A stretch of DNA of 58,010 nt from Candidatus Omnitrophota bacterium (GCA_014729775.1 WJJJ01000005.1:1-58010), one strand, 5' to 3'. Positions 4,896 to 57,932 are shown, counted from the first letter of the stretch. Translations and numbers: made by a program. The notes: generated from the letters alone by a model not told the origin.

Positions 4896-4897
4896 AG

Positions 4898-6472
4898 CTA
4901 TGTCCTAGAAAATAAAAATTGAGCAGGTTTTTTCAGTACGGGGATCGATTGGAAAAGACCCTCTAAATATTTCCGCTCATCATCCGTAAAACCTATTTTG
5001 TAAATGAAAAAGAAATAACCACAACTACTACCTAGTCCAAAAATAAATAAACGAAAATACGAAGGCTGCAAGAAAGGCGTAGCAACAACCCAAATTAATA
5101 TACCCATCATAAAAGCTTTCAGAAAAGAAAGAGTCAATACCTTGAGATAACTACTGACTTTCATATTAAGCACTTTACATGTATAAACCGGCTGCACAAC
5201 CAATCGCATCACCGCCATCGGTATAGCAGTTCCCAAAGCAACACCATTCAACCCTATGAAATGCACCAACACCAAACTCAATGCGAGATTCAAAATCGCT
5301 TCTACTGAGTTCGTGAGTGCATAGAACCGATGCTTTGATATCCCATACAGAAGCTGAGTAGAAGGTAATTGTCCTGACATAATCGCAAAAGGGACAACAA
5401 AAATAAGGCATAACTGATAAGCGAAACTGTATTTTTCTCCGACCCAGCGAATAATAAAGAACTCCCCCCCAACAAAAATCATCACGCCGAGAAAAACGGA
5501 TATAAAAACCGAAATTTTAATAAAAAACAATAATTTCTTCTTAATGTTTTCATAATCCTGTTTCCCTTCGTACTGACTAAATAATGGGGTGGTAATACCC
5601 GTAATGCAAAACACAAAGCTCTTATAATATTTCATTAACCGTGCAGCGATGGAATATACAGTTACTGATGCCAACCCTAACACACCGGCGATCACGAAAT
5701 TATCAATATTGAACCTGATCTTGTCTGCGACTTGGTTAACAAACGTATAAAAACTGTAGCGGAACATCTGCGTCAGTTTCTTCTTATCCACTAAAAACAA
5801 AGAATATTTTATATACGGCGCCTCACGTACAGATAAAATCAATAATGCAAAATATCCGCTAACCTCTGTTACAAAGGTTAGCACCGCTAGTGCAAGAATT
5901 TTATATCCTAATTTCAGAAAAAACACGATCAAAACGGATCGTACTAGAATTTTGATAATTTCCACAAAAGAAATTAAGTCATACCGAAGATTTGAGGAAA
6001 GAACACCGAAAAATGTCCGGGAAGGAAAGCTTAACGCGATACCTATCCCCAAAATTACAACCACCTGCCGGAACAAGATGTAACTTTTTACATTTGGAAA
6101 AAAAACTTTGGCACCGAAAAATATCGCGAGAGTCACTACTATTGCGAGTAGACCAATAGCGGAAAAGACAACGAACGAAGTGCTCGCATAAGAAGAAGCC
6201 AATTTGTGATCTTTTTTCCCTATCGCCTGCGAAACAAATCGCTGATTCGCCGATGCAAGGCCGAAATTGAACAAATCATAGAAACCAAACAACGTTCCAA
6301 CTAAAATCCATAAACCGTACATTTTATCCCCTAAAGAACCAATCACCAAGGGAGTTAATAATAAAGTCACTGCCAGATTTACAAAAAAGGCACCTCCTCG
6401 CAAGAATGAACTTCTTGCCATGATAAGTGACCTTCCAGTTTTTACAGAATTATTCATTTGACGGTGATTCAT
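4898..6472 (-). CDS. Wzx-type polysaccharide flippase
   Basis: A 524-residue very hydrophobic protein with about 12-14 membrane segments, of the MOP/Polysacc_synt family. It would flip the lipid-linked repeat unit across the inner membrane. The N-terminus has the usual short amphipathic stretch (KTGRSLI) followed by the first membrane segment and LGDKMYGLW, typical of Wzx proteins. ATG 6472 overlaps the upstream truncated glycosyltransferase by 23 bases and lacks a good ribosome site; ATG 6421 has GGAAGG upstream and is an alternative. The gene is strikingly AT-rich (a sample line is about 33% GC against about 57% in the flanking glycosidase gene). Confidence 0.88.
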   Translation of the reverse strand: MNHRQMNNSVKTGRSLIMARSSFLRGGAFFVNLAVTLLLTPLVIGSLGDKMYGLWILVGTLFGFYDLFNFGLASANQRFVSQAIGKKDHKLASSYASTSFVVFSAIGLLAIVVTLAIFFGAKVFFPNVKSYILFRQVVVILGIGIALSFPSRTFFGVLSSNLRYDLISFVEIIKILVRSVLIVFFLKLGYKILALAVLTFVTEVSGYFALLILSVREAPYIKYSLFLVDKKKLTQMFRYSFYTFVNQVADKIRFNIDNFVIAGVLGLASVTVYSIAARLMKYYKSFVFCITGITTPLFSQYEGKQDYENIKKKLLFFIKISVFISVFLGVMIFVGGEFFIIRWVGEKYSFAYQLCLIFVVPFAIMSGQLPSTQLLYGISKHRFYALTNSVEAILNLALSLVLVHFIGLNGVALGTAIPMAVMRLVVQPVYTCKVLNMKVSSYLKVLTLSFLKAFMMGILIWVVATPFLQPSYFRLFIFGLGSSCGYFFFIYKIGFTDDERKYLEGLFQSIPVLKKPAQFLFSRT

Positions 6473-6968
6473 GAATTTTCGGCCCCTGTCCTCTCATCGA
6501 TCCGTACACACTCCTAACCAGTCGTACTACCCCCCATTCATCTTCCCCTTTTTTAAAAACATTCATTATTGTCCGCGTCCTTCCTTTCGCTCTCTCGGAA
6601 TAGACGATTATCTTACTGGATACTGTAAGCAGGAACCGGTGAAACAGAAGCTCGATGCACCGTTCTCTGGACTCATGATTGAATAAATTATGCACCGTCC
6701 ATACGATCTTGCCCCCCCACACGCGCAGGATCACCAATTTCACCAAGAAAACGATAAACTGAACGCAACGTCGTAGCTTCCCGGCCTTGTAGAGGAAGGC
6801 GTATATCCAATGCACGTGCACGATATCAAACTTTTTCTTTCCCAGCACCATCTGCCGGGAAAGGTATTTTTTCACGGTGACGGCAACATACCGCAATCCC
6901 CCTTCAATGAGAAGTCGTTGATACGAATTACCCTGCAGCTGATCGTTCACCCAGACAACCCTGAGCAT
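6450..6968 (-). pseudogene. N-terminal fragment of a glycosyltransferase
   Basis: 172 residues corresponding to only the N-terminal Rossmann half of a GT-B glycosyltransferase: FDIVHVHWIYAF followed by KIVWTVHNLFNHE, a pattern of GT4-type enzymes acting on polysaccharide intermediates. The C-terminal nucleotide-sugar domain is missing: the reading frame ends just inside the start of the flippase gene. ATG 6968 is preferred because AAAGGA lies 6 bases upstream and the conserved fold begins there; an upstream ATG at 7067 adds 33 low-similarity residues. It lies at the right edge of the AT-rich block, so loss of its 3' half during insertion of that block is a reasonable inference. It could still be expressed as a small protein. 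Confidence 0.6.
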
Positions 6969-7079
6969 GCCATATCCTTTATCTAGAGTATCCCGGCGAC
7001 GTTCCGGGCCCGGACGGGCTTTCGGATTCCTCTGTTTTACAGTGATGACCTCGTTCACATATGCCATTTTCTTTTCCTG

Positions 7080-7601
7080 TTACCGCGAGCGACTGACATC
7101 CCTTCTTTTCCGTATGTATCCCGGCGCATGAAGTGCCGCGGTTCGGAATTCCTCGAACAGAACGCATTCCCGGTCCCGATGTACAGAAAGGAATGCCTCA
7201 AGTCCTTTGATCACCTTTGCCGGACTGCCGGCAGCGACCGTATTCGGCGGCACGTCTTTGGCCACCACGCTTCCGGCGCCGACGACCGCGCCGGGGCCGA
7301 TCGTCACTCCCGGCAATATGATGGTTCGCGCGCCGATAAAGCAATTCTCCTTGATCGTCACCGGAGCAAACCGGGCAACGCGTAAAAATTTGTACATGCT
7401 GGCGTCATGGCCGAGAATCAGCACCTCGTTGGACAGCGTACAGTTATCCCCGATCGTAATCAGCCGGCAGTACAGGTCGTCAAAATAACAGCCGGGCATA
7501 ATGTCGACGTTGCGGCCAACCTTCATTCCATTTTGAATGCAGCGGTCGATGTACCGGCGATATTTATATCTCCGCATTTTGGTGAGTATTCTTGACACCA
7601 T
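7080..7601 (-). CDS. Hexapeptide-repeat O-acyltransferase
   Basis: A 173-residue left-handed beta-helix transferase of the WbbJ/LacA type. Hexapeptide turns run from about IGDNCTLSNEV through VTIKENCFIGARTIILPGVTIG and GAVVGAGSVVAKDV, ending in the typical NTVAAGSPAKVIK. Family members O-acetylate sugars using acetyl-CoA in the cytoplasm. ATG 7601 is chosen over a TTG at 7670 because AGGAG lies 8 bases upstream. It sits between a nucleotide-sugar epimerase and the glycosyltransferase fragment, so decoration of a repeat-unit sugar is likely. Composition returns to the GC-rich pattern of the locus. Confidence 0.85.
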   Translation of the reverse strand: MVSRILTKMRRYKYRRYIDRCIQNGMKVGRNVDIMPGCYFDDLYCRLITIGDNCTLSNEVLILGHDASMYKFLRVARFAPVTIKENCFIGARTIILPGVTIGPGAVVGAGSVVAKDVPPNTVAAGSPAKVIKGLEAFLSVHRDRECVLFEEFRTAALHAPGYIRKRRDVSRSR

Positions 7602-7695
7602 GTGATGAGCTCCTGTCTTCGTATCGCGTCGCGCGCATTGCGCATCCAGAATCAGAAACCGTACTTTCAAACCCTCGACGCAATGCGGACGACAA

Positions 7696-8685
7696 TTACC
7701 CCGCCTCTGACCTCTTGTCTTTCATCGACTCGATCGTCCGTTCCAAAATCTCATCCAGCGACACTTTGGGCGCATAGCCGGTGAGGGCGTGAATCTTGGT
7801 CACGTCCGGCACCCGGTAGCGCATGTCCTCAAACCCCTCACCGTAGGCCTGGCTGTAGGGCACATACACCAGTTCCGAAGACGACTTCGTCATTTCCTTG
7901 ATCTTTTTGGCTAAGTCTTCGATGGTGATCCCCTGAGGGTTGCCGATATTGCACACGTCACCGACCGCTTCCCGGGTCGCCATCAGATCGATAATGCCTT
8001 TGACCACGTCCCCAACATAGGTAAAACTGCGGGTCTGCTTGCCGTCGCCGTAGACCGTAATCGGCAGATTATGCAGTGCCTGGCTGATAAACCGCGGGAT
8101 CACCATTCCGTAACGGCCGGTCTGCCTCGGCCCGACGGTATTGAAAAAGCGGACGATCACCGCCGCAAGGCCGGTCTTCCTGCAGTAGGCCAGCGCGAGG
8201 AATTCATCGAGCGCCTTGGCGCAGGCGTAACTCCACCGGGACGTCTTGGTGGAACCGAGAATGCTGTCGGCGTTCTCGGGGAACACCGAGCTGGGGTTTT
8301 TCCCGTAGACTTCCGATGTGGACGCCACCAGCACCTTCTTGTTTCCCTTACTGGCTAAATCAAGCACGATCTCGGTCCCCTGCACGTTGGTATGAATGCT
8401 CTGCAACGGTTTCTCCAGGATGTATTTGACGCCCACGGCCGCGGCCAGATGATAGATCTCATCGCAGCTGTCTACCAGCTTGCGCATGACCATTTCATCC
8501 ATAATCGTATCGCGGGTGAAATGGAAATCGGGATTTTCCATTAAATGCGCAATATTGTCCCGGGTGCCGGTGGAGAGATCATCAATCACCGAAACCCTGC
8601 ACCCCTGCGCCAGCAGCGCTTCGGCCAGGTGCGAGCCGATGAAGCCCGCTCCGCCGGTGATCAGTATTTTTTTCTTGGCATTCAT
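7696..8685 (-). CDS. NAD-dependent nucleotide-sugar epimerase/dehydratase
   Basis: A 329-residue extended short-chain dehydrogenase. It has the N-terminal nucleotide-binding ITGGAGFIGSHLAEALL, STSEVYGK around the catalytic serine, and YACAK as the YxxxK catalytic pair, followed by RFFNTVGPRQTGRYGMV typical of UDP-glucuronate decarboxylase and UDP-glucose 4-epimerase relatives. It would supply a nucleotide sugar for the polysaccharide. ATG 8685 follows AAAGGAGGAGGA. Exact substrate cannot be fixed from sequence; the GPRQ motif and length fit UDP-sugar epimerases or decarboxylases. It is 17 bases downstream of the glycosidase gene. Confidence 0.85.
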   Translation of the reverse strand: MNAKKKILITGGAGFIGSHLAEALLAQGCRVSVIDDLSTGTRDNIAHLMENPDFHFTRDTIMDEMVMRKLVDSCDEIYHLAAAVGVKYILEKPLQSIHTNVQGTEIVLDLASKGNKKVLVASTSEVYGKNPSSVFPENADSILGSTKTSRWSYACAKALDEFLALAYCRKTGLAAVIVRFFNTVGPRQTGRYGMVIPRFISQALHNLPITVYGDGKQTRSFTYVGDVVKGIIDLMATREAVGDVCNIGNPQGITIEDLAKKIKEMTKSSSELVYVPYSQAYGEGFEDMRYRVPDVTKIHALTGYAPKVSLDEILERTIESMKDKRSEAG

Positions 8686-8702
8686 TCCTCCTCCTTTACT
8701 GA

Positions 8703-10844
8703 TTACAATTCAATCTCCAGCGCGGTGACCGACCGGGCCGGCAGAGTATATTCGAACGCGCCCTCGGCGGTAAATTCCGTAACGGCCTCGATCGCGATGC
8801 TGTCCGGACTGTTCTCGTTGGACTCCATCAGCCCCGGCCCGGTAAGCACCCAGGGAGTGCAGGTCATCGTTCCGTTCGTTCCTTTTACCCGCATCTTCAC
8901 TTCGATATCGTCCTTTTCATGTTTATTGACCAGGATCACCCCAAGTTTGTTTCCGGTTTTGAATTTGCTCGCGTAACAGGTCACGTAGGGCACCTCGCCG
9001 GTATAGGAACTGGGCCACCAGTCATTTTCTTTATAGTAGACGGGAGAATTATGCACGTGACTCTCCACCATCACGTCGCCGAAGTGATCGGCGTACAGTT
9101 GTATCGCGTACCCTTTGGGACGGATGATCTTCTGGTCCCAGGGACTGCCGCCCCAGCCCCAGGGTTTATCCCAGCCGCGGATCAGACCGAACATACACTC
9201 CTGAAAGTTATAATGGGCCGACACCGTCACCCCATGCCGGGCGAATTCGCCCAAGGTATCGGCATAAAAAAGTGCATTGGCCAGCGACCACATCGCGTTG
9301 CCTTCGGCAAAGGGCGGACTCGGGTCGCTGGAAGGCGCGTCCCAGGCCCCATCCCACTCAAGGAAGGTTACCTCGATCTCGCCCTCGCGGTAGGGCGCGT
9401 AGGTATCGATGAGCGAATGGACCCGTTCGATCATCCGCGGGATCTGCCTATGATTGGCCATGACTTCCTTGGGGTAAGGGTGCACCCGCCCTTTGTAGGC
9501 GTGCTCCTTATTGATATGATTGGGATACCAGTGAATCGAAACGAAATCGATATACCGTCCGGCCTCCTTTAATATGGTCTGGTCCCACTGGACTTTGTTA
9601 TAATAGGTTTCGCCCCAGTTGGCGCCGATCTTGATCGTCGGGTCCACCGCCTTCATCGCGGTGGAATATTCCCGGACGATCTTCGCATAATTGCCCGCGG
9701 TGGTATGGGCGTTGTCCCAGCCGCCGTAAGCCTCGTTCCCCAATTCCCAGTATTCGACCCGGAAATCCTTCTCCTTATTCAGATACCGGACCAATTCCGC
9801 GGCTTCTTCCGCGGTGCCGGATTCGATGTTGACCTGCATGATCAGCTCAGTTCCGGTATCCCGAAGGAAATCGACCAGATAATCGACATCGGCCAGCATC
9901 ATCCGTTTCATCTTCGGGCTGAAATCCCCCTCGCCGGTCTTCCAGCGCCAGCCCGGCGATCCGCCGCCGGGGAACCGGAAACAGGTCAATCCCAGGTGCC
10001 GGACGAGCTTGCGGATGATGGTATTGCTCTCCATTTTCGCGCACAGGTTTGATCCCCAGAGCAATTCGCTCACCTCATTTCCTTCGCTTGCCGGATCGAT
10101 CACGATCGAGACCGGTCCGGACACCGAGACGGGTACCTTCCGCTTCTTTACAGGCACTGCCGTCGCCTCAGCCCCGGAAGCACTTTCTTCACGCGGCTGC
10201 TCCGCCGCCGGAACGGAAGCTTCCTCGGCGTCCCCGCTGACCAGCCGGATATTGTCGAAATAGAGCACGTGCCGGCCCGGGACTTTCCACAGAAAGATCC
10301 GCATGTGATTGATGTCATTCATGATCAACTTGCGGTCAATCGCCTCGATCGGAATCTCAATATTATTCCAGCCCTTGCGTAACGCAATCCCGTCACGGTT
10401 AAACCGGTCATAGTAAGAAGTATTGCGGGTGTCGGCAATAAACAGCGACAGCGGCACCTCGCCTTCTTCGCTGTAGACGTCAAACTTCAGCGCCTTGTAG
10501 CCGACCCAGTTACGGGGTAACGTCGCCCAGTACCCAACGGCACCGCCCCCATCGGGAAAGGTCACTTTAAGAGAATAAGTTCCCCGGCTGGCGTAGGCGT
10601 CCGAACGCTCAACGGCCGCTTTACTCACTTCGAGTTTCTTTACGTCGCTCTCCTGTTCAAAATCCGAAATCCTCTGCACGCCTTTGACGAACAGGTTGAC
10701 TTCCGTCGCCTCACGTGCCTTGGAGAAGAACCCTTTCACCCGCGGGTTGACGTTGATGTCAACGTCAACCAATTTTTCGGCAAAGAATCCGAGAAAAAAC
10801 ACCCCTAACACCAATATCAGCAACCGGTTGAACGTCAGCTTCAT
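8703..10844 (-). CDS. Membrane-anchored clan GH-A glycoside hydrolase with carbohydrate-binding domain
   Basis: A 713-residue protein. An N-terminal hydrophobic segment (about residues 5-23) is an uncleaved anchor or signal. A beta-sandwich-like domain follows (about 50-220, ending in HVLYFDNIRLVSG), typical of carbohydrate-binding modules. After a Glu/Ala/Pro-rich linker comes a TIM-barrel catalytic domain related to GH39/GH51/GH79 arabinofuranosidases and glucuronidases: WELGNE gives the acid/base glutamate and TFLEWDGAW the likely nucleophile. It probably trims or edits the polymer in the periplasm. ATG 10844 has a perfect AAGGAGGTG site and overlaps the upstream gene stop as ATGA. Confidence 0.8.
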   Translation of the reverse strand: MKLTFNRLLILVLGVFFLGFFAEKLVDVDINVNPRVKGFFSKAREATEVNLFVKGVQRISDFEQESDVKKLEVSKAAVERSDAYASRGTYSLKVTFPDGGGAVGYWATLPRNWVGYKALKFDVYSEEGEVPLSLFIADTRNTSYYDRFNRDGIALRKGWNNIEIPIEAIDRKLIMNDINHMRIFLWKVPGRHVLYFDNIRLVSGDAEEASVPAAEQPREESASGAEATAVPVKKRKVPVSVSGPVSIVIDPASEGNEVSELLWGSNLCAKMESNTIIRKLVRHLGLTCFRFPGGGSPGWRWKTGEGDFSPKMKRMMLADVDYLVDFLRDTGTELIMQVNIESGTAEEAAELVRYLNKEKDFRVEYWELGNEAYGGWDNAHTTAGNYAKIVREYSTAMKAVDPTIKIGANWGETYYNKVQWDQTILKEAGRYIDFVSIHWYPNHINKEHAYKGRVHPYPKEVMANHRQIPRMIERVHSLIDTYAPYREGEIEVTFLEWDGAWDAPSSDPSPPFAEGNAMWSLANALFYADTLGEFARHGVTVSAHYNFQECMFGLIRGWDKPWGWGGSPWDQKIIRPKGYAIQLYADHFGDVMVESHVHNSPVYYKENDWWPSSYTGEVPYVTCYASKFKTGNKLGVILVNKHEKDDIEVKMRVKGTNGTMTCTPWVLTGPGLMESNENSPDSIAIEAVTEFTAEGAFEYTLPARSVTALEIEL

Positions 10845-11549: not shown

Positions 11550-12938
11550 CTATCCTTGCCTCCCGGTATGCGCGCCCGACAAAGACGATACCACCAGCAG
11601 GGTTTTCCCTGAAGCGGTCCGGTCAAGTTCCCGTACCGGTTTAAAATCAAACTCGAAATCCTCTCCGTACCTTTGGAGAAGATGGGCGCGCATCACATTT
11701 TCCTCCCGCGGAGTGATTGTTTTCCTGGGAATGACGCACATAGTCACTTTGCCGGGCACCCGCTGATGGTATTGGTACTGCGCGATATATTCATAATACG
11801 CTTCAAGATAGTCCATGATCCGGTGATACCGCCCTTTTTTATCCATGATGTACATCCTCTTGCGGCCTCCCGACAGGTACATCAGAGGAAACCCGCGGCG
11901 GCAGGGACAGGGTCCCTCCACCGGGAACCCGTAATCTTCGGTTTTATACCGGATAAACGGCATCACGAAATTGCTCAGGCCGGTCGTGATGATCTCCCGC
12001 GCGCCGTCGGAGAACCCGGGATCGGGTTTCCCGAACTCCACGATCCCGTAATCGGAATTCACGTGATATCCCCGGTGACAGCCGCATTGACAGGCGATCA
12101 CGTTACGTTCTTCCATCGAATACCAGTCATGGATCTTGGCGTTGAAATACTCCTCGATGTTCCCCCGCTGGTCCGCGGACAGGACCTCAGCGAAAGTAAA
12201 GATCGCCCGCGGGGAGAACGGACGGGACAAGCCGGCCTCGCGCAGTCCTTTCACCAATTCCGCCAGGGCAGCCGGATACCCTTTGAGAAACCGAAACGGG
12301 AAGTTCCTGAGTGCGGAGTAATAATGAAAGATATTCTTTCCCGTGATGTCATAAATGGAAAAAAACACTTTCTTCTGGACGGGATTATACTGATAGATAT
12401 CTTTCCTCCTGTCGAACTGGGCACGGAACACCGCGCACAGGTCATCCGGATTATATCCCGCCCAGCGGTAAAACCGCCATTCATAGGGATTGCCGATGAC
12501 GTGCTCATTGTGGTAATCGGCATACACCGGAACGACTTTTCCCGTCGTACCGCTGGTCGTGATTGCAAACAAATTACGCCTGTCCAATCCCCGGGTCACA
12601 AAGGCGTCCGGATCGGCCCGTACCGTATCCTTGGACAGAAGCGGGATCTTATGAAGATCCTCCACCGACCGGATATCCCGGGGCGCAAGCTTGCAGTCAC
12701 GAAACAACCGGCGGTAATAAGGGACATGGGCGTAGGCGTGCCGGACGAGTGCCCGCAGGCGCTCGTTCTGATAATCACGCAGCTCCTGCGGAGTCCACCA
12801 CTGCCGCTGTTCCAGATCGTTGAGCTGACGGAAGAACTCCTTGCCTACTCGCAACCGCAGAGGCAGAGCGCCGTAACCGCATTTCAGACCGGTTTTCACG
12901 AATTGCGGCAGTTTCTTATACAGCGTGCGCGGATGCAT
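11550..12938 (-). CDS. CapK/PaaK-like adenylate-forming enzyme
   Basis: A 462-residue protein of the phenylacetate-CoA ligase (PaaK/CapK) family of AMP-forming enzymes. It has the N-terminal HAYAHVPYYRRLF segment, the Ser/Thr/Gly loop TTSGTTGKVVPVY, and YSMEERNVIACQCGCHRGYHV with YKTEDYG in the C-terminal part. CapK-like members sit in capsule and EPS loci and are thought to activate a carboxylate before transfer. The adjacent GNAT-type genes on both sides suggest that an activated acyl or amino acid is moved onto a sugar. ATG 12938 has GGGAGGAG 6 bases upstream and overlaps the preceding gene by 23 bases. Confidence 0.82.
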   Translation of the reverse strand: MHPRTLYKKLPQFVKTGLKCGYGALPLRLRVGKEFFRQLNDLEQRQWWTPQELRDYQNERLRALVRHAYAHVPYYRRLFRDCKLAPRDIRSVEDLHKIPLLSKDTVRADPDAFVTRGLDRRNLFAITTSGTTGKVVPVYADYHNEHVIGNPYEWRFYRWAGYNPDDLCAVFRAQFDRRKDIYQYNPVQKKVFFSIYDITGKNIFHYYSALRNFPFRFLKGYPAALAELVKGLREAGLSRPFSPRAIFTFAEVLSADQRGNIEEYFNAKIHDWYSMEERNVIACQCGCHRGYHVNSDYGIVEFGKPDPGFSDGAREIITTGLSNFVMPFIRYKTEDYGFPVEGPCPCRRGFPLMYLSGGRKRMYIMDKKGRYHRIMDYLEAYYEYIAQYQYHQRVPGKVTMCVIPRKTITPREENVMRAHLLQRYGEDFEFDFKPVRELDRTASGKTLLVVSSLSGAHTGRQG

Positions 12939-14640
12939 GTCCTACTCCTCCCAAATCATCTGCGTGTTCCGTTCCCAGCGCATGAATCTTGAGGCCGGCC
13001 AATCCCCGGTACCGGTAGCCTTTCAGGATATCCTGCCGGTAGTTCTGCCCGGGCTCAATCCATATATGACCGTAAAGCTGTTTCCGGCGAAGACTCATCA
13101 ATGGATTATTCAGCAAAAAGCGTTTCACCGGCGGGGTAAATCTCCTCACGCGGATCGCGAAGACATTCGCCCGGCACGGATCAAAACTGATCACCGCGTC
13201 CCACTTTGCTTTATACTGCAGGATCCCGTCATTGAGGAAGGGGCGGCTTAGACCCAGGTCGATCGTATGAAACCCATGTTCGGCCGCGTACCGGAAATAG
13301 AAATAATACAGCGCGCTTAACGCGTCCCGTTTGACCAGCCCTCTGTCCCCGTTGAGCACGCCTAAAAACATCGGGTGAAAAACCCTCCGAACGCATTCGA
13401 TCACCGCGCCGGAGACATACCGGTTTCCGTCTTTGATCAGAAAGAGACCGCCCCGGCGCATCACCCGCCGCAGTTCGGCGAAAGGTTTGATCACGGTCTC
13501 CTCGCTAAATCTCTGCCGGATATGCGGCAGGTACATATGGTCGTAAAAGAACCGGAGCAATTCTTTATTTTTCACGAACTCGTATCTATAGCCCCGTTTT
13601 TGCACGGATCTGACGTCGTAATAGGCACTGCGGTTTTTGCACTTGCGCACCTTTTTGAACCCCTCATGGGGAAACGGGGCGTGGATCCGCTGAACTACCC
13701 ATTGAGGAATGAACGTAAGACGCGGCACGTTTCCCAACGCGCGGGTAAGCAATGAATACGGAGCATCGGCGATCACCACGTCCGCATCGGCGCAGGCACG
13801 GACGTATTCCTCGCGCAGGGCACGCCGCGGGAATTTTTTCAGTTCTTTGACCGTATATCCGCGCGCATACATCCGCCGGAAGAGAGATACGTCATACACT
13901 CCTTTGGAAAGGAACCGGATACGAGGCGCGTGATCTTCGCCGGAAATTTCATAGACTCCAAGAGCACGGTCCTGCACCCGGGCGTATCCTTTTTTCGCTT
14001 TTTCGACCGCGGGAAAGAAAAGAATCCTGCCGGTCTTCGCGATTCCTTTCAGCGCGCCCAGCCCAGCGCACGCCGCGGATGCAGGAATTCCCCGGAGAAA
14101 ATAAAAACTTTTTTGCAGACGGGCGATCTTCAGCAGATAAAGATCCCCGGCAAACTGCAGGCCGGCCCGTTCGGCGGTTTGCCGGGCGGTAAGTACGGAT
14201 TCATCGACATAGGCATCGATACGGGTATGGGTAGACGCGACGGCGCGGATTACCTGCCGGTACAACGCCGTCCCGATTCCTTTTCCCCGGTAGTGCGGCT
14301 TCACATACAAACCGTGCACGTAGGCCGCCCGGGAAGCACAGATCCGCGTGTAGCGGAACGGATAACGGAGTACCGCCCTGCCTGAAGGATTAAAAAAAAA
14401 GCAGCCGATCAGTTCGTCTCCGGCGTAGGCGAACACCCCGGCGGTACCGGCTTCATGGAGATTATTTTGAAACGGATGACGCAGGTCGACAGGGATGTCC
14501 CGGTAAACCCGGAAGGAAATCCCTTCTGGTGAACGAACGGAAGCGGACACGCCCGACACGGACGCGGTATAATGGTGCACCCTGCGCACGGCAGCCGCGT
14601 GAACCATTCGCCTGAACGCGTTTTTGAGCGGAGCGATCAT
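12916..14640 (-). CDS. Two-domain GNAT protein (GNAT plus FemAB/BioF2-like domain)
   Basis: 574 residues with two acyltransferase units. The N-terminal one (about 1-185) is a classical GNAT: YVHGLYVKPHYRGKGIGTALYRQV carries the RGKGIG acetyl-CoA loop. The C-terminal half (about 300-560) ends in YYFYFRYAAEHGFHTIDLGLSRPFLNDGIL, the pattern of FemAB/BioF2-like GNAT domains associated with EPS loci. ATG 14640 overlaps the cupin stop as ATGA and has GAGG upstream; it avoids 24 residues read in the cupin gene. Likely transfers acyl or aminoacyl groups in polymer assembly; substrate not deducible. A fusion with two active centres is plausible because both motifs look intact. Confidence 0.75.
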   Translation of the reverse strand: MIAPLKNAFRRMVHAAAVRRVHHYTASVSGVSASVRSPEGISFRVYRDIPVDLRHPFQNNLHEAGTAGVFAYAGDELIGCFFFNPSGRAVLRYPFRYTRICASRAAYVHGLYVKPHYRGKGIGTALYRQVIRAVASTHTRIDAYVDESVLTARQTAERAGLQFAGDLYLLKIARLQKSFYFLRGIPASAACAGLGALKGIAKTGRILFFPAVEKAKKGYARVQDRALGVYEISGEDHAPRIRFLSKGVYDVSLFRRMYARGYTVKELKKFPRRALREEYVRACADADVVIADAPYSLLTRALGNVPRLTFIPQWVVQRIHAPFPHEGFKKVRKCKNRSAYYDVRSVQKRGYRYEFVKNKELLRFFYDHMYLPHIRQRFSEETVIKPFAELRRVMRRGGLFLIKDGNRYVSGAVIECVRRVFHPMFLGVLNGDRGLVKRDALSALYYFYFRYAAEHGFHTIDLGLSRPFLNDGILQYKAKWDAVISFDPCRANVFAIRVRRFTPPVKRFLLNNPLMSLRRKQLYGHIWIEPGQNYRQDILKGYRYRGLAGLKIHALGTEHADDLGGVGHASAHAV

Positions 14641-51273: not shown

Positions 51274-53289
51274 TCATCCATCGAACCGTACCAGCCGCGC
51301 GTTCACTGCGACAATAATCGTACTGAGAGACATGATCAACGCGCCTATTGCCGGAGCCAGCACAATTCCCCATTGATACAACACCCCGGCTGCGAGAGGA
51401 ATCGCGATCACGTTATACCCGGTCGCCCAAGCCAGATTTTGAACGGTTTTGCGATGATTCATTACTGAAAGCCTGATAATATCGACGACATCTCTTGGAT
51501 CATTCTCAATCAACACGACATCGGCGGTTTCCACCGCCACATCCGTGCCCGCTCCAATAGCGATTCCCACATCAGCCTGCGCCAGGGCCGGCGCGTCATT
51601 AACCCCGTCTCCCACCATCGCCACCTTTTTGCCTTCGTGTTGAAGTTTCTTTATCTTCTCGGATTTTTTATCCGGTAAAACTTCGGCAAAATAACTGTCC
51701 AGGCCCAACTGATCGGCCACAAACTTTGCTGTCGCTTCATTATCACCGGTGATCATCGAAACACCGATATTCTGCTCCTTGAGACGCTTGATTGCTTCTT
51801 TTGATTCATCCCTGATGATATCCGAAAGAGCGATAATCCCCTCAACCTTTTGTTCAGCCGCGACAAAGACCAAGGTCTTTCCCTGCGAGGCAATCTCATC
51901 GGCCTTTTTCCGCGCTTCATCTGCAGATGAAACTTCGGCGATCTCGAGAATACCTTTATTACCGACGAATATTTGCACATCCCGGACTCCGGCTTTCGCT
52001 CCCTTGCCCGGCACGGCTGAAAAATTCTCCGCCTTCGGCAATTTGAGTTTCCTTTCTTTTGCCTTCTTCACAATGCCTTTGGCAATCGTATGCTCAGAGT
52101 TTATTTCAACGGCAGCGACTTTCTTTAATAGCTCCTCTTCACTCCAGCCGCCAAACGTAACGATATCCGACACGCCGAATTCTCCCTTGGTTAATGTGCC
52201 GGTCTTATCAAAAACGATCACTTTAAGATTGCGCGCACTCTCAAAAGCACTCCTGTTTCTTATCAGGAGCCCGTTTTTAGCCGAAATAGCGGTAATCACC
52301 GCGATCACCAACGGTATGGCCAAACCTAAAGCGTGCGGACAGGTGATCACCATGACAGTGACCATGCGCTCAAGAGCGAATACGAATTCTTTCCCGAATA
52401 AAAGCCAGCTGATCAGTGTTGCCGCACCAACGGTAATGGCAATCATAGTCAGCCAGAATGCCGCTTTATCCGCGAATCCCTGCGCTCTGGATTTACTTTC
52501 ACTGGCAGTTTTTACTAGTTCTATCACCTGGGAAAGATAAGAATCTTTGCCGGTCTTGGTCACCTCAACGGTAATGGAACCATCGCCGTTCACCGCGCCG
52601 CCGATAACCGTATCGTCTTTCTTTTTGCTTACCGGTTTTGATTCGCCGGTGATGGCCGCTTCATTAACATCCGATTCCCCATCCAGAACTTTGCCGTCAA
52701 CCGGAATTTTCTCCCCCGGCTTAATACGCACGACGTCTCCTGGGGACAACTGTCCGACTGGCACCTCCTCCAGACTCCCGTCCTCTTTTACCCGATGCGC
52801 TTTTGAAGGCATCAGTTTCGCCAGCTCATGGAGCGCGCGTGAGGCTCCCATGACCGAACGCATCTCAATCCAATGCCCCAGCAGCATTACATCAACTAAC
52901 GTAACCAGTTCCCAGAAAAAAACTTTACCCTTTACCCCCAGAACCACTGCCGCGCTGTAGAAATACGCGACCGAAACAGCCAGGGCAATCAGCGTCATCA
53001 TGGCCGGCTGTCGCTGTTTCATTTCCCGCATGAATCCTTTAAGAAAAGGCCAGCCGCCATAAAAATACACAAAGGAAGATAACCCCAGTAATACTGTCAT
53101 ATCTCCGGAGAAATGTACGCGGAATCCGAAAAATGATTGGATAAGCGGGGAAAGAATAAGTACCGGCAAGGTAAGAATCAAGGAAATCCCGAATCGTTTA
53201 CGAAAATCGGCCACCATACGCGCGTGATGAGAACCGTGCGCTTGATGCCTTTTCTGTTTGTTATGGTTGCTCTGTTCGCGGTTTTTCAT
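51274..53289 (-). CDS. CopB-like P-type metal ATPase
   Basis: A 671-residue P1B ATPase, inner membrane. The N-terminus is His-rich (SNHNKQKRHQAHGSHH) and has no CxxC heavy-metal domain. The metal site in the membrane is CPH at 317-319, DKTGTLTKG at 361-369, ITGDNEATA near 510, and VGDGVNDAPALAQ near 560. CPH with a His-rich N-terminus fits the CopB subgroup, associated with Cu(II) or Cu/Ag export. ATG 53289 is 14 bases downstream of the SufE stop. The fold is complete. Confidence 0.92.
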   Translation of the reverse strand: MKNREQSNHNKQKRHQAHGSHHARMVADFRKRFGISLILTLPVLILSPLIQSFFGFRVHFSGDMTVLLGLSSFVYFYGGWPFLKGFMREMKQRQPAMMTLIALAVSVAYFYSAAVVLGVKGKVFFWELVTLVDVMLLGHWIEMRSVMGASRALHELAKLMPSKAHRVKEDGSLEEVPVGQLSPGDVVRIKPGEKIPVDGKVLDGESDVNEAAITGESKPVSKKKDDTVIGGAVNGDGSITVEVTKTGKDSYLSQVIELVKTASESKSRAQGFADKAAFWLTMIAITVGAATLISWLLFGKEFVFALERMVTVMVITCPHALGLAIPLVIAVITAISAKNGLLIRNRSAFESARNLKVIVFDKTGTLTKGEFGVSDIVTFGGWSEEELLKKVAAVEINSEHTIAKGIVKKAKERKLKLPKAENFSAVPGKGAKAGVRDVQIFVGNKGILEIAEVSSADEARKKADEIASQGKTLVFVAAEQKVEGIIALSDIIRDESKEAIKRLKEQNIGVSMITGDNEATAKFVADQLGLDSYFAEVLPDKKSEKIKKLQHEGKKVAMVGDGVNDAPALAQADVGIAIGAGTDVAVETADVVLIENDPRDVVDIIRLSVMNHRKTVQNLAWATGYNVIAIPLAAGVLYQWGIVLAPAIGALIMSLSTIIVAVNARLVRFDG

Positions 53290-53303: not shown

Positions 53304-53738
53304 TCAGGTATTCATTCGCGCTGCCGCCGCGGCCTTCATCTGTTTTACGATCGCGGCCAAGCCGTTCGCCCGGCTGGGCGAAAGATTAGAACGCAGTCCC
53401 GTTCGGTCTAAAAAGTACAATTCCGCGGCGGCAATATCGCGAGGCGGCTGGTTATTCAGCACCCGTAACACAAGAGCGATAATTCCGCGGGTGATCTTCG
53501 CGTCACTGTCGGCAACATAGTTCATCCGGCCGTCTCTCATTCTGGGCATGAGCCATACTTGCGACTGGCAGCCGGCAATGGAGTACTCATCGCGCCTCAG
53601 TGCCGTTTCCATCGGCGGCAGATCCCTGCCGAGATCGATTAAGTATTCATACTTCTCCATCCAGTCGTCAAGCCGGGCCATTTCTCTGATAATCTGCTCC
53701 TGAATCTCATTGATTGAAATACTCGCGTCTTCCCTCAT
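53304..53738 (-). CDS. sufE: SufE-type sulfur acceptor
   Basis: A 144-residue SufE: QEQIIREMARLDDWMEKYEYLIDLG is the N-terminal helix pair and EYSIAGCQSQVWLMPRM the loop with the sulfur-accepting Cys57. SufE takes persulfide from SufS-type desulfurases and passes it on. ATG 53738 overlaps the SufS-type stop as ATGA, so the two are made together. It is downstream of the ergothioneine-type genes in the same transcript rather than beside SufBCD, which are not in this window. Confidence 0.93.
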   Translation of the reverse strand: MREDASISINEIQEQIIREMARLDDWMEKYEYLIDLGRDLPPMETALRRDEYSIAGCQSQVWLMPRMRDGRMNYVADSDAKITRGIIALVLRVLNNQPPRDIAAAELYFLDRTGLRSNLSPSRANGLAAIVKQMKAAAAARMNT

Positions 53739-55024
53739 TGCAGACTCCTCGTGGATTTACACTCCCCGCACAGCTCCTGCACCCGGCGGATACCTTCGAT
53801 CAGCGCGTCCACTTCATCCCGGGTATTGTACAGCGCGAAACTGGCACGGACCATCCCGCCGACCCCGTATTTCCGCATCAGCGGCTCGGCGCAATGCGTA
53901 CCGCTCCGCACGGCAATTCCCAACTTATCCAGGATCAGTCCGGCGTCATAAGGATGCACGCCGTCGATAGTAAACGATACCGCGCCGTATCTGCGGGAGG
54001 GAGAAGCGTACACCGTCACCCCGTCCAGCGCCCGGAGCCTTCCTTCCGCGTAATCCATCAGCCGGCGTTGGTGCGCGCGCACCGAATCAAATCCAAGTTT
54101 GCGGAGATAGTGAATCGCTTCCTCCAGACTCAAGGCTCCGGCGACATGCATTGTGCCCGCCTCAAATTTCAGCGGAAGACCGGCATAGCGCACCCTTTCC
54201 GGACCTACCGACTGGACCATCCCTCCGCCGGTCCGGTAAGGCGGCAGGATCCGAAGCCACTGCTCTTTGCCGTAAAGTACGCCGATGCCCGTATCCGCGT
54301 AGAGCTTGTGTCCGGAAAACGCGAAAAAATCACAGTCAAGCGCCCGCACGTCAACTTCGAAATGCGCCACCGCCTGAGCTCCGTCAAGCAATACCGGCAC
54401 GCCTCTGGCGCGAGCACGGCGGATCACTTCTTCCACGGGATTGCGTACTCCCAGCACGTTGGACACGTAAACCAGCGCGATCAGCTTTGTGTTCTCCGTG
54501 ATAAGCCGGTCCAGATCTTCCACCCGTAACCGGCCGTTATGCTCACAGGGAAGTACCTTCAGAGCGGCCTGCCTGCGCGCGCATATTCTTTGCCAGGGAA
54601 GCACATTGGAATGGTGCTCCATCCCGCTGACGATAATCTCGTCTCCTTTGCTCAAAAAATCGGCCCCGAATGAATCGGCGACCAGATTTATCGCGTCGGT
54701 CGTTCCCTGGGTAAACACAATTTCCCGCGTACTCCGGGCATTGAGAAACTGCCGCACGGTTTCCCGCGCGGCCTCGAACTCGCCGCTGGCCCGCTCGCTT
54801 AATGCGTGCACTCCGCGATGGATATTGCTGTTGTTCCGGGTATAAAAATCAACGATACGCTTCACTACCGCACGGGGTTTCTGGCACGTCGCGGCATTAT
54901 CCAGATAGATCAACGGCCGGCCGTTCACGCGGCGGGCCAGGATAGGAAAATCCTTACGCACCTTGTCCACGTCCAGTACCTGAGCGGTGTTTATCTTTTT
55001 GTAAGTTGTACCAGTGAAAACCAT
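53735..55024 (-). CDS. sufS: SufS/CsdA-type cysteine desulfurase
   Basis: A 429-residue group II PLP enzyme that removes sulfur from cysteine. YLDNAATCQKPRAVV is the start motif, RGVHALSERASGEFE follows, FTQGTTDAINLVA, GAQAVAHF, and SGHKLYADTGIG with the PLP lysine at 240. The catalytic loop VRSGTHCAEPLM has Cys378. ATG 55024 overlaps the EanA/EgtD-like gene by 34 bases, and the stop overlaps SufE by 4. This arrangement points to a dedicated sulfur supply for the neighbouring rhodanese, not a general Fe-S cluster role. Confidence 0.92.
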   Translation of the reverse strand: MVFTGTTYKKINTAQVLDVDKVRKDFPILARRVNGRPLIYLDNAATCQKPRAVVKRIVDFYTRNNSNIHRGVHALSERASGEFEAARETVRQFLNARSTREIVFTQGTTDAINLVADSFGADFLSKGDEIIVSGMEHHSNVLPWQRICARRQAALKVLPCEHNGRLRVEDLDRLITENTKLIALVYVSNVLGVRNPVEEVIRRARARGVPVLLDGAQAVAHFEVDVRALDCDFFAFSGHKLYADTGIGVLYGKEQWLRILPPYRTGGGMVQSVGPERVRYAGLPLKFEAGTMHVAGALSLEEAIHYLRKLGFDSVRAHQRRLMDYAEGRLRALDGVTVYASPSRRYGAVSFTIDGVHPYDAGLILDKLGIAVRSGTHCAEPLMRKYGVGGMVRASFALYNTRDEVDALIEGIRRVQELCGECKSTRSLQ

Positions 55025-55989
55025 CGGTTCTCGTCCGTATACATCCGTCGTATCATCAACCCCGCGTCAGCCGCCATCCGGGCAATCTGTTTAGGGGTGA
55101 ACTTATGCGAATTTTCGGTATGGATCGTTTCTCCTTCGGTAAGTTTGAGTTTCCCTTTCACGTGCGGACAGCGCACTTCCATATCGCCAAGTGCCTGCAG
55201 ATGCATTTCAATGCGGCATAACGTTTCGTCATAGAACGCAAGATGCGCAAAACGGTCCGGATCGAAATCGGTCCCGGCGATACAGTTGACCACCCTGAGA
55301 ATATTCCGGTTGAATTCCGCTGTTACCCCCTGACTGTCGTTATAGGCCCGTTCAAGAACATCCTTCTGCTTGGTCATGTCCAATCCCAGCAGCAAGGCAT
55401 CTCCCTGCCGCATTACCCGGCATAAAGAGCTCAGATACTCCACTGCTTCATCACGGGATAAATTACCCAGCGTACTGCCGAAAAAACAAAACAGCCGGTC
55501 CTGCCGGCTGGGAAGCAGTTCAAATTGACCAAAGTCGGCCACCAACCCCTGCACCGCAATTCCGGGAAACCTCTTCACCACCGCGTGGGCCGATTCCCGC
55601 AAAGCCGCGCCACTGACGTCCACGGGAATATATCGAATCCGCTGCCGCCGCGGTGCAGGTACCGCTTCCAGCAACAGCGAGATCTTCGAACAGTCGCCGC
55701 TGCCGAATTCTATTACGTCACCTTGCTGAAGAAACCCGACTATATCTTGGCGCATCTGCTTCAACAAGTTTTTTTCGGTACGATTCGGATAATATTCCGG
55801 CAGGCGGGTGATGTGTTCGAACAGTTTCGAACCGGTATCGTCATAAAAATACACGCTGGGAATCTTTTTCTGCGGGGCACTCAGCCCGTGAAGGATCGAC
55901 CACAGCGTACGGTTCTCGTTTTTTTCGCGAAGACAGTGACGTATCTCCACTGCCGAAGCCGGGCATGAAATATGAGATGAACTGCTCAT
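54991..55989 (-). CDS. eanA: EgtD/EanA-type histidine N-alpha-methyltransferase
   Basis: A 332-residue SAM methyltransferase of the EgtD family, which makes hercynine from histidine. FYDDTGSKLFEHITRLPEYYPNRTE is the family's hallmark substrate loop (about 48-72), VIEFGSGDCSKISLLLEA is the SAM site (about 92-109), CFFGSTLGNL follows, and TENSHKFTPKQ near 290 matches the substrate-binding Glu/Ser segment of EgtD. No EgtB-type sulfoxide synthase is nearby. ATG 55989 overlaps the rhodanese gene as ATGA. Together they form an EanA-EanB pair. Confidence 0.92.
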   Translation of the reverse strand: MSSSSHISCPASAVEIRHCLREKNENRTLWSILHGLSAPQKKIPSVYFYDDTGSKLFEHITRLPEYYPNRTEKNLLKQMRQDIVGFLQQGDVIEFGSGDCSKISLLLEAVPAPRRQRIRYIPVDVSGAALRESAHAVVKRFPGIAVQGLVADFGQFELLPSRQDRLFCFFGSTLGNLSRDEAVEYLSSLCRVMRQGDALLLGLDMTKQKDVLERAYNDSQGVTAEFNRNILRVVNCIAGTDFDPDRFAHLAFYDETLCRIEMHLQALGDMEVRCPHVKGKLKLTEGETIHTENSHKFTPKQIARMAADAGLMIRRMYTDENRWFSLVQLTKR

Positions 55990-57323
55990 GCGACAGCGCG
56001 GTCTTGCTCCTCGAAGGTTCGCTCCGGGATCCCGGTTTCAAAAGGGTTCTTCTCGTCGTTGCTCCATTCAAACCACCCGCCGTCGAATACCGAAATCCGC
56101 GGCCAGCCCATCAGCCAGGCATGAAAAAAGGCCTCGCTTCCTCTCCAGCCGGTGCCGCAATAAAAGGCGTTCCGTTTCTCCGGTGTGATCCCGGCGTTCG
56201 ACCACATCTTTTCTATTTCTTGATATTCCCGGGCGGTATGATCAAGATTCCGGTAATTCTCCATATGATAGGCGTCACTGCCGCAATTTCCGAACACTGC
56301 CCCGGGGATACGGCCTTTTTTCTCGATATAGTGGTACCCGCTCACCTCTCCCGTGAACTCCCGCCAGCTGCGCACACTCACCAGGTTCTGATCTTTTTCC
56401 CGCAAGATCCGTTTCGCTTCCGCTATATCCACCGCCAATTCGGGCCGCGCCGGAATCGCGCCGCCGAAATCAGCGGCCGGACGCGGTTCAACCGCCTCCC
56501 GGACGATCGAAAAACCCGCATCCCGCCATGACTGCAGACCGCCGTTCAATATCCGCACGTCCCTGACCCCTGCATACATCATCAGGAACGCGCAGCGCAT
56601 CGCCGCCAACTGACCGGCGCTGCTGCCCGGGAACGGATCACGGTTATCCGGGAAAGAAAACCGTCCATACAGGATCACCGTGGTATCACGGGTAATCCCT
56701 AAATGCGCGAATGCCTGTTTCAATTCCTCAGGAGAACGGCGATTCCAGGTCTGAGGTGATTCCAGCATATTGGTATCAAGAGGAATCGCTCCGGCAATAT
56801 GTCCCTGGGTATAGGCATCGGGATTGCGGTAATGGGCATGGGCCAAAACGAACCGCTGATTGTCGTATTCCGGCGCGTGTCCGTCCTTGAGCAATTGTGC
56901 CAGCCATTGCGCGGGCACTAACTGCCGGTACCGTGCCAACCTCTCTAGCGGTAACTGCCTGTCCGCGGACCATCCGGGAACGAAGTCATGATACACCGCG
57001 ATATTCTCATACCCGGCCCGAAGGAACTGCCGGCCGACTGCCTCTGCTTCTCCGGGATGATACCCGTAGAGTACGAGCGGCTGTGCAGGCCGGATGCCTT
57101 TCGCCCGGACGATCTCGATCCAGTCGATATAATCACGCCATTTCGCGGGAAGACTTCGCGCGCCCGGGATATGGCCGCCACGCGCCTCCCCCCGGAGTTT
57201 CCAGCCGTTGTAGGCATCCACCGGACGCACATCGATTATCTGCGTGCGCTTATCGTTGAGCCGGTCACGAAGCTGACGGGTAGATATCTTTTTCCAGGGA
57301 GTCGTAATGCCTTCTTTGTTCAT
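55986..57323 (-). CDS. eanB: Multi-rhodanese sulfurtransferase, EanB-like ergothioneine synthase
   Basis: A 445-residue protein made of tandem rhodanese domains (about 13-125, 137-275 and 297-430): DVRPVDAYNG, GHIAGAIPLDTNML, and a C-terminal active loop CGTGWRGSEA with Cys389. Tyr330 (EVSGYHYIEKKG) lies 59 residues before it, matching the spacing I recall between Tyr353 and Cys412 of Chlorobium EanB, which puts sulfur directly onto hercynine. Length is also close. Other cysteines are at 244 and 347. ATG 57323 is chosen as the start that fits the domain; AGG upstream is weak. Coupled to EanA by a 4-base overlap. Confidence 0.82.
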   Translation of the reverse strand: MNKEGITTPWKKISTRQLRDRLNDKRTQIIDVRPVDAYNGWKLRGEARGGHIPGARSLPAKWRDYIDWIEIVRAKGIRPAQPLVLYGYHPGEAEAVGRQFLRAGYENIAVYHDFVPGWSADRQLPLERLARYRQLVPAQWLAQLLKDGHAPEYDNQRFVLAHAHYRNPDAYTQGHIAGAIPLDTNMLESPQTWNRRSPEELKQAFAHLGITRDTTVILYGRFSFPDNRDPFPGSSAGQLAAMRCAFLMMYAGVRDVRILNGGLQSWRDAGFSIVREAVEPRPAADFGGAIPARPELAVDIAEAKRILREKDQNLVSVRSWREFTGEVSGYHYIEKKGRIPGAVFGNCGSDAYHMENYRNLDHTAREYQEIEKMWSNAGITPEKRNAFYCGTGWRGSEAFFHAWLMGWPRISVFDGGWFEWSNDEKNPFETGIPERTFEEQDRAVA

Positions 57324-57363: not shown

Positions 57364-57500
57364 CTGACCTCTCTTGGGAAATACAGATGCTGAAACCTGA
57401 TTCTTCTGACTTTATTCCGCCCTGCCCGCGCCTGGCACACATCCGGATACCGGCGGGAAACAAATCAAAACTTCATACTTCCCGCACATATACCCTCTCC

Positions 57501-57542: not shown

Positions 57543-57932
57543 TCAGCAGGTCAGATGAAACGCCCCTGCGACCCGTTTCCCGTTCTGTACATACCGGTTG
57601 AACATCGGGCACATATCATCCGTCGTACCGGAAATGAGTTCGATATTTCGTTTTTTGAGTTCCGAACCGGTTTCGGGAGGGATCCGCAACCGCCCGAACG
57701 CGCCCTGCCCGACAACAAGTATGTCCGGTTTAAACTGAAACACGGTTCGCAAATCGTTCGCCGACAACGCGTGGCCCTGCTCCCGCCACCAGTTCGGTTC
57801 AATCTTGTCCGGATAGAGGATGAGATCTTTCTCAAAGGTATTCCCGCCGACCTTCATCCTGCCGAAAGAATACCCTTCAATTTTCACCTGTTTTTTTGGG
57901 GACCTCATTTGGTAAAAACGCCGGGCAGACAT
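57543..57932 (-). CDS. Mth938-domain (NDUFAF3/AAMDC-like) protein
   Basis: A 129-residue protein of the Mth938/DUF498 fold: IEGYSFGRMKVGGNTFEKDLILYP, then WWREQGHALSANDL, and the conserved PDILVVGQGAFGRLRIPPE and FNRYVQNGKRVAGAFHLTC. Its role in bacteria is unsettled; eukaryotic relatives help assemble respiratory complex I. ATG 57932 follows GAAGGAGG at short spacing; ATG 57908 is an alternative without a ribosome site. A preceding gene ends 10 bases upstream. Confidence 0.88.
   Translation of the reverse strand: MSARRFYQMRSPKKQVKIEGYSFGRMKVGGNTFEKDLILYPDKIEPNWWREQGHALSANDLRTVFQFKPDILVVGQGAFGRLRIPPETGSELKKRNIELISGTTDDMCPMFNRYVQNGKRVAGAFHLTC

Follow-up and report, generated by a model that had tools for sequence, protein, structure and literature searches.

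What delivers sulfur to EanB, the rhodanese-like synthase of anaerobic ergothioneine formation? The question is raised by a locus in a 58,010-nucleotide stretch of a Candidatus Omnitrophota bacterium (GCA_014729775.1 WJJJ01000005.1:1-58010; hereafter, the window), in which eanB and eanA are followed by sufS and sufE, the genes for a cysteine desulfurase and for the carrier that accepts its sulfur. Ergothioneine is an antioxidant. The chemistry of EanA and EanB has been established in Chlorobium limicola, and the transfer of sulfur from SufS to SufE in Escherichia coli. What donates sulfur to EanB is a matter of dispute. Cysteine and E. coli IscS support EanB in vitro and were used in the first EanB report, which held the sulfur to be delivered by IscS; a re-interpretation favors polysulfide (PMC9103826, PMC11767532). 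In the later view, IscS merely generated S8 and polysulfides, and polysulfide is the direct donor (PMC9103826). The window locus is probably an anaerobic ergothioneine operon in which the sulfur of cysteine reaches EanB through a relay of protein persulfides, with direct contact between SufE and EanB.

Identity of the four proteins

The rhodanese was compared with the structures of C. limicola EanB (PDB 6ktv) and scored 616 bits over the whole chain; the next family was E. coli YnjE, with 300. The gap-free alignment with C. limicola EanB contains 254 identical residues out of 423 (60%), versus 43% identity to YnjE. Cys412, Tyr353 and Arg417 of the C. limicola enzyme correspond to Cys389, Tyr330 and Arg394 in the window; because this triad is also present in YnjE, it does not discriminate between the two families. 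A stronger test is offered by 35 positions at which EanB is invariant and YnjE differs; the window protein has the EanB residue at 34 of them. When YnjE served as the outgroup of a tree, the window protein fell inside the EanB family, to which C. limicola EanB also belongs; the placement of the root is uncertain, YnjE being distant. The rhodanese is thus EanB, as the initial annotation had proposed, and does not cluster outside that family. A YnjE-like molybdopterin sulfurtransferase is ruled out by the identity, the EanB-specific residues and the tree. From its family membership, the protein is predicted to sulfurate trimethylhistidine.

The methyltransferase exceeded the equivalog cut-off of TIGR03438 (L-histidine N-alpha-methyltransferase; 356.8 bits, cut-off 290.9) and matched PF10017 with 352 bits. 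It scored 208 bits against Mycobacterium smegmatis EgtD, with which it has the motifs STxGNL, AYxDxxGVTAxFNRN and TExS in common. The earlier assignment to an EanA/EgtD-like enzyme holds, and hercynine formation is predicted from the sequence. SufS is a stand-alone protein with Aminotran_5 as its sole strong Pfam match; it passed TIGR01979 (548.5 bits, cut-off 475.1) and retains all equivalents of E. coli SufS His123, Asp200, Gln203, Lys226, Arg359, Cys364 and Arg379. SufE passed PF02657 (150.1 bits, cut-off 27) and has Cys57 and an Arg at the positions of E. coli Cys51 and Arg119. The SufS-type and SufE identities claimed for the pair therefore stand, with the tested catalytic residues kept, and the residue numbers given earlier for EanB (Cys389) and SufE (Cys57) are correct. 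Against the NCBIfam equivalogs NF006792 and TIGR03391, which are based on E. coli, window SufE scores below the cut-offs; the same holds for two suf-operon SufE proteins of EanB genomes. The persulfide Cys is retained in 44/44 distinct SufE sequences linked to ean genes.

Layout of the locus

The window corresponds to contig C33 in an assembly of 1.65 Mb and 34 contigs (94% complete, 1.3% contamination). Translation of the open reading frames confirmed the four genes at their proposed positions, in the order eanB-eanA-sufS-sufE from 57323 to 53304, with 4, 34 and 4 bases shared by neighbors (Table 1). The open frame of eanB reaches further upstream, to a GTG at 57440. The 34-base overlap of eanA and sufS holds only with the ATG start of sufS; an alternative GTG start (V19, base 54970), 18 codons downstream, gives no overlap, and homology begins at about residue 16-20. 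We infer a common transcript for the four genes. The Rfam scan of the window gave zero matches, and the promoter and terminator scan gave counts like those in shuffles. Contamination or a very recent acquisition was rejected, as the GC content of the operon, overall and at third codon positions (GC3), is like that of the rest of the contig and of other contigs.

Table 1. Positions of the genes and loci discussed (aa, amino acids).
Feature	Location	Position	Strand	Remarks
eanB, rhodanese-like ergothioneine synthase	window	55986..57323	-	445 aa from ATG; catalytic Cys389, Tyr330, Arg394
eanA, S-adenosylmethionine (SAM)-dependent histidine N-alpha-trimethyltransferase	window	54991..55989	-	332 aa
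sufS, SufS-type cysteine desulfurase	window	53735..55024	-	429 aa; catalytic Cys378
sufE, sulfur-accepting carrier and SufS activator	window	53304..53738	-	144 aa; acceptor Cys57
Minimal SUF locus	contig C28, L093 (genome G000)	4220-7146		SufC and one SufBD-core protein
Heavy-metal P1B-type ATPase	window	51274-53289	-	CPH motif
DUF498 (PF04430) protein	window	57543-57932	-	
Natural EanB-EanA fusion	L068 (Bacteroidales genome)	6922-9171	+	one 749-aa frame
Pyridine-nucleotide disulfide oxidoreductase	L009 (Aminicenantes)	11953-13386	+	abuts the end of sufE

Two neighbors lie on the same strand. The gene for a P1B-type ATPase begins 14 bases past the sufE stop codon and may be on the same transcript; it is not conserved as a neighbor of other ean loci. 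A DUF498 protein is encoded upstream of eanB, across a gap of about 220 bases.

Recurrence of the cluster in other genomes

A search for EanB in 84,980 species genomes (GTDB) yielded 307 encoded relatives, of which the best 80 were retrieved. The comparison covered 80 EanB rows (79 loci and the window), a sample that leans towards EanB near that of the window. The commonest neighbor of EanB was EanA, followed by SufE and SufS. The complete order eanB-eanA-sufS-sufE was present in 16 of the 80 rows (15 loci and the window). Two rows had eanB-eanA-sufS up to a contig end, two had eanB-sufS-sufE without an adjacent eanA, and eight, from several phyla, had eanB-sufE without sufS. Neither sufS nor sufE lay by eanB in the other 52, in 18 of which the contig stops 2.5 kb or less downstream. 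The survey for the same gene order that had been proposed at the outset thus found it at another 15 loci, which span eight phyla of bacteria and archaea: Planctomycetota, Thermoplasmatota, Aminicenantes, Elusimicrobiota, Bacillota (Syntrophomonadaceae), Fibrobacterota, Omnitrophota and Methanosarcinaceae. Metagenome assemblies account for most of them; Methanosalsum natronophilum (L062), Methanolobus halotolerans (L064) and Methanohalophilus sp. (L077) are isolates according to the titles of their records. Because the same order recurs so widely, chance neighborhood is ruled out.

Further arrangements were seen at ean loci. EanB and EanA are fused in a single frame in a Bacteroidales genome (Table 1). 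The disulfide oxidoreductase encoded at the end of sufE in L009, with relatives near eanB in L044, L048 and L057, is a candidate ergothioneine-disulfide reductase. Twelve archaeal and bacterial loci (L007, L008, L025, L034, L047, L048, L052, L054, L057, L065, L066 and L073) encode a small protein of about 93 aa with DUF427 (PF04248) near their ean genes.

In the SufS tree, 26 ean-linked SufS proteins from many phyla (the window and 25 others) were split from 17 other SufS/CsdA proteins, among which are suf-operon SufS from other EanB genomes as well as two proteins from the class of the window; the support, 92/92, is close to, yet below, the threshold of 95. Ean-linked SufE grouped with suf-operon SufE from Bacteroidota and Chlorobiota, whereas E. 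coli SufE/CsdE and the lone SufE found in six other Omnitrophota fell apart from them (support 99). C. limicola EanB belongs to a Bacteroidota/Chlorobi subtree in which zero sampled loci have sufE or sufS by eanB. The trees fit one old SufS-SufE-EanB unit that would have moved between phyla and, in the Bacteroidota/Chlorobi branch, would have lost its linked SufE or exchanged it for another. The lone Omnitrophota SufE (L202, L203, L204, L205, L206 and L208) form a branch of their own; their genes have no adjacent sufS and in several cases lie beside dCTP-deaminase-like and MoaB/MogA-like genes.

One EanB position was considered as a signature of linkage. Position 408 in the numbering of C. limicola EanB lies four residues ahead of Cys412 and is Asn in 41/41 SufE-linked or methanogen sequences and Leu in 42/52 unlinked ones. 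Asn408 was rejected as a signature of SufE-linked EanB, since some unlinked sequences also have it and it may therefore reflect shared descent. The Asn/Leu difference could be due to shared descent or to a partner-related change.

Co-occurrence of EanB and SufE

SufE was encoded in all 26 EanB genomes searched, as a single copy in 25, and wherever sufE was linked to eanB it was the sole or main (strong) copy. Among 200 Methanosarcinia genomes, SufE was present in 29/29 with EanB versus 3/171 without; among 384 Omnitrophota genomes, the figures were 3/3 versus 6/381. Fisher values were 7e-32 and 9e-6, respectively, with shared descent ignored. Of the three methanogen exceptions, G180 has a contig break inside the eanA of an eanA-sufS-sufE cluster, and G129 (75 bits, partial) and G081 (22.6 bits) contain SufE fragments. 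In two EanB genomes, sufE lies on a different contig, the cluster being broken at a contig end in both. None of four archaeal control genomes encoded SufE.

The type of SUF system varied with the linkage. In all five genomes examined that have eanB-sufE without an ean-linked sufS (Gemmatimonadota G040, Calditrichota G049, Bacteroidota G050, Ignavibacteriota G053 and unclassified G052), the housekeeping sufS adjoins a sufU gene; four of these SufU proteins match TIGR01994 (151-158 bits, cut-off 92.5), and that of G040 was recognized from sequence alone. In the four genomes examined with unlinked eanB (G062, G063, G064 and G066), sufE is beside or near sufS in a suf operon. Across these nine genomes, eanB has an adjacent sufE when the SUF system itself would provide none. 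The placement beside eanB in genomes whose SUF system uses SufU suggests that EanB needs SufE specifically, rather than the product of any cysteine desulfurase. Since these arrangements were not inherited as a single block, they are more telling than the methanogen co-occurrence.

Route of sulfur to EanB

In the proposed pathway, EanA would convert histidine and SAM to trimethylhistidine (hercynine). SufS would transfer the sulfur of cysteine to its Cys378 and then to Cys57 of SufE, from which it would pass to Cys389 of EanB. EanB would insert it into the imidazole C2-H of trimethylhistidine without oxygen, giving ergothioneine. The SufE that serves EanB would come from the gene beside eanB or from a SUF operon of the SufS-SufE type. 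The earlier proposal that SufS-SufE feeds EanB gains support from the conservation of the cluster and from the co-occurrence of EanB and SufE, both read from genomes; that such a supply would remove the need for environmental polysulfide, as the initial annotation had also suggested, is a more speculative step.

A precedent for contact between a SufE-like protein and a rhodanese comes from Mycobacterium tuberculosis, in which Rv3284 binds and activates SseA, the rhodanese encoded next to its gene. With thiosulfate as donor, Rv3284 raised SseA activity 4-fold; binding was 1:1, and models put the Rv3284 Cys at the entrance of the SseA cleft (PMC12375888). IscS also interacts with YnjE (PMC8931425). 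The work that favors polysulfide used an EanB from the branch without linked sufE, and the partner was IscS, not SufE. Together with the Rv3284-SseA precedent, this favors direct contact between SufE and EanB.

Several points weigh against such a relay. Cys412 of C. limicola EanB ends a 13 Å tunnel and has been argued to be unreachable for a protein persulfide (PMC9103826). We infer both the transfer from SufE to EanB and its directness. The Fisher values overstate the association, because linked genes inherited as a block, as in the methanogens, are not independent events. The reciprocal SufU/SufE pattern is drawn from a sample of nine genomes. The genome of the window has no other detected SufS/IscS-type desulfurase, so its SufS-SufE pair may also serve other pathways and need not be dedicated to ergothioneine in this organism.

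A wider form of the relay is tentative, and we place it a little short of an even chance. SufE would be the obligate natural partner of EanB, docking to it and delivering sulfur or opening the way for it; ergothioneine would normally be derived from cysteine via SufS-SufE-EanB; the SufE of methanogens would serve this pathway solely; and the C. limicola branch would have lost its linked SufE because a SUF operon supplies one.

SufS and SufE may also feed EanB indirectly, the operon being a polysulfide generator whose local soluble per- or polysulfide enters the tunnel to Cys389. This is rather unlikely. In its favor, C. limicola EanB works best in vitro with polysulfide as donor, S8 and polysulfides precipitate in IscS reactions, and a protein donor is said to be kept out by the tunnel (PMC9103826). 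However, any desulfurase would then suffice, yet genomes with SufS-SufU or NifS/IscS enzymes keep SufE by eanB. SufE is also reported, in the title of Gogar 2024, to protect the persulfide in transfer, which counts against a soluble polysulfide.

It is very unlikely that SufE acts chiefly as an allosteric activator that opens the EanB site, with sulfur from polysulfide, thiosulfate or another desulfurase. Such a role has been proposed for Rv3284, which stimulates SseA with thiosulfate as donor and binds it 1:1 (PMC12375888), and eanB-sufE pairs without sufS occur in several phyla. The persulfide Cys kept throughout the ean-linked SufE argues against it, as does the presence of sufS within the same cluster in most linked loci.

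Sulfur supply in the genome of the window

The operon SufE is the only SufE in this genome. No second SufS or NifS/IscS-type desulfurase was detected in it (94% complete), and its other class-V aminotransferase matches are weak and not desulfurase-like. No SufB, SufC or SufD is encoded near the ean operon; SufC and a SufBD-core protein occur on contig C28 only, in the order Fur-like regulator, SufC, single SufBD-core protein, ferredoxin-reductase-like protein and rubrerythrin, and this locus contains no SufS, SufE or SufU. The initial annotation had allowed for sufBCD just outside the operon as the true context of the desulfurase. With SufB/D on a separate contig without SufS or SufE, membership of SufS-SufE in a SUF operon is ruled out.

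Among 38 same-class relatives, none encoded SufE, which suggests an older gene transfer. SufS exceeded the cut-off in two of the 38, both from other families and both paired with SufU. Several same-family genomes without the operon have no good desulfurase match at all, so none seems obligatory. Two other operon-bearing Omnitrophota also have NifS-like enzymes.

That SufS-SufE is a housekeeping supply for iron-sulfur (Fe-S) clusters and thiolated tRNA, merely sharing a transcript with eanBA, is the least probable explanation: the absence of another detected desulfurase and of SufS, SufE and SufU from the C28 locus favors it, but the cluster is conserved in phyla whose genomes hold several other desulfurases, the same-class relatives do without SufE and the same-family ones without SufS over the cut-off, a desulfurase seems dispensable in operon-free family members, and the other operon-bearing Omnitrophota have NifS-like enzymes as well.

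Significance and comparison with known systems

A linkage that is conserved in eight phyla from two domains, combined with the SufU/SufE pattern, points to SufE as the specific physiological donor for EanB, and the ean clusters are ready-made enzyme sets for testing the disputed donor. If the persulfide relay is true, SufE would act outside Fe-S assembly in archaea, in which it is otherwise rare, and cysteine-fed, oxygen-free modules for ergothioneine production would be available.

The initial annotation knew of no published operon with these four genes. In the open-access literature, neither a mention of SufE with EanB nor such a four-gene cluster was found, the original EanB papers lying outside that search; the coupling of a desulfurase (IscS) to EanB in vitro had already been published (PMC11767532, PMC9103826), so the novelty does not extend to it. 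Also known are the EanA-EanB chemistry and IscS-fed EanB in vitro (PMC9103826), the fusion of MES, a metallopterin-dependent ergothioneine synthase, with a desulfurase (PMC9516567) and the synteny of eanA and eanB in Methanococcoides (PMC7278568).

C. limicola EanA-EanB (Clim_1148/Clim_1149) are the same two enzymes, EanB being 60% identical without gaps and having the same catalytic Cys, Tyr and Arg. The C. limicola pathway differs in being described as two genes with polysulfide as donor, and the loci sampled from its subtree are without linked sufE or sufS. The SseA-Rv3284 pair of M. tuberculosis is alike in that the gene of a rhodanese adjoins that of a SufE-like protein, its binding partner and activator, but the rhodanese is of another family, neither a methyltransferase nor ergothioneine is involved, and no desulfurase is named in the pair (PMC12375888). 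MES of Caldithrix abyssi likewise forms ergothioneine anaerobically with cysteine sulfur supplied via a cysteine desulfurase and a persulfide relay; its desulfurase is fused to a bis-molybdopterin guanine dinucleotide (bis-MGD) metallopterin enzyme unrelated to rhodaneses (PMC9516567), whereas the window encodes EanB with separate SufS and SufE, and its SufS is not fused to a molybdopterin oxidoreductase module. The SUF operon (sufABCDSE) contains the same SufS and SufE families in adjacent genes. The ean cluster differs from it in being without SufB, SufC and SufD and in the separation of ean-linked SufS from suf-operon SufS in the tree.

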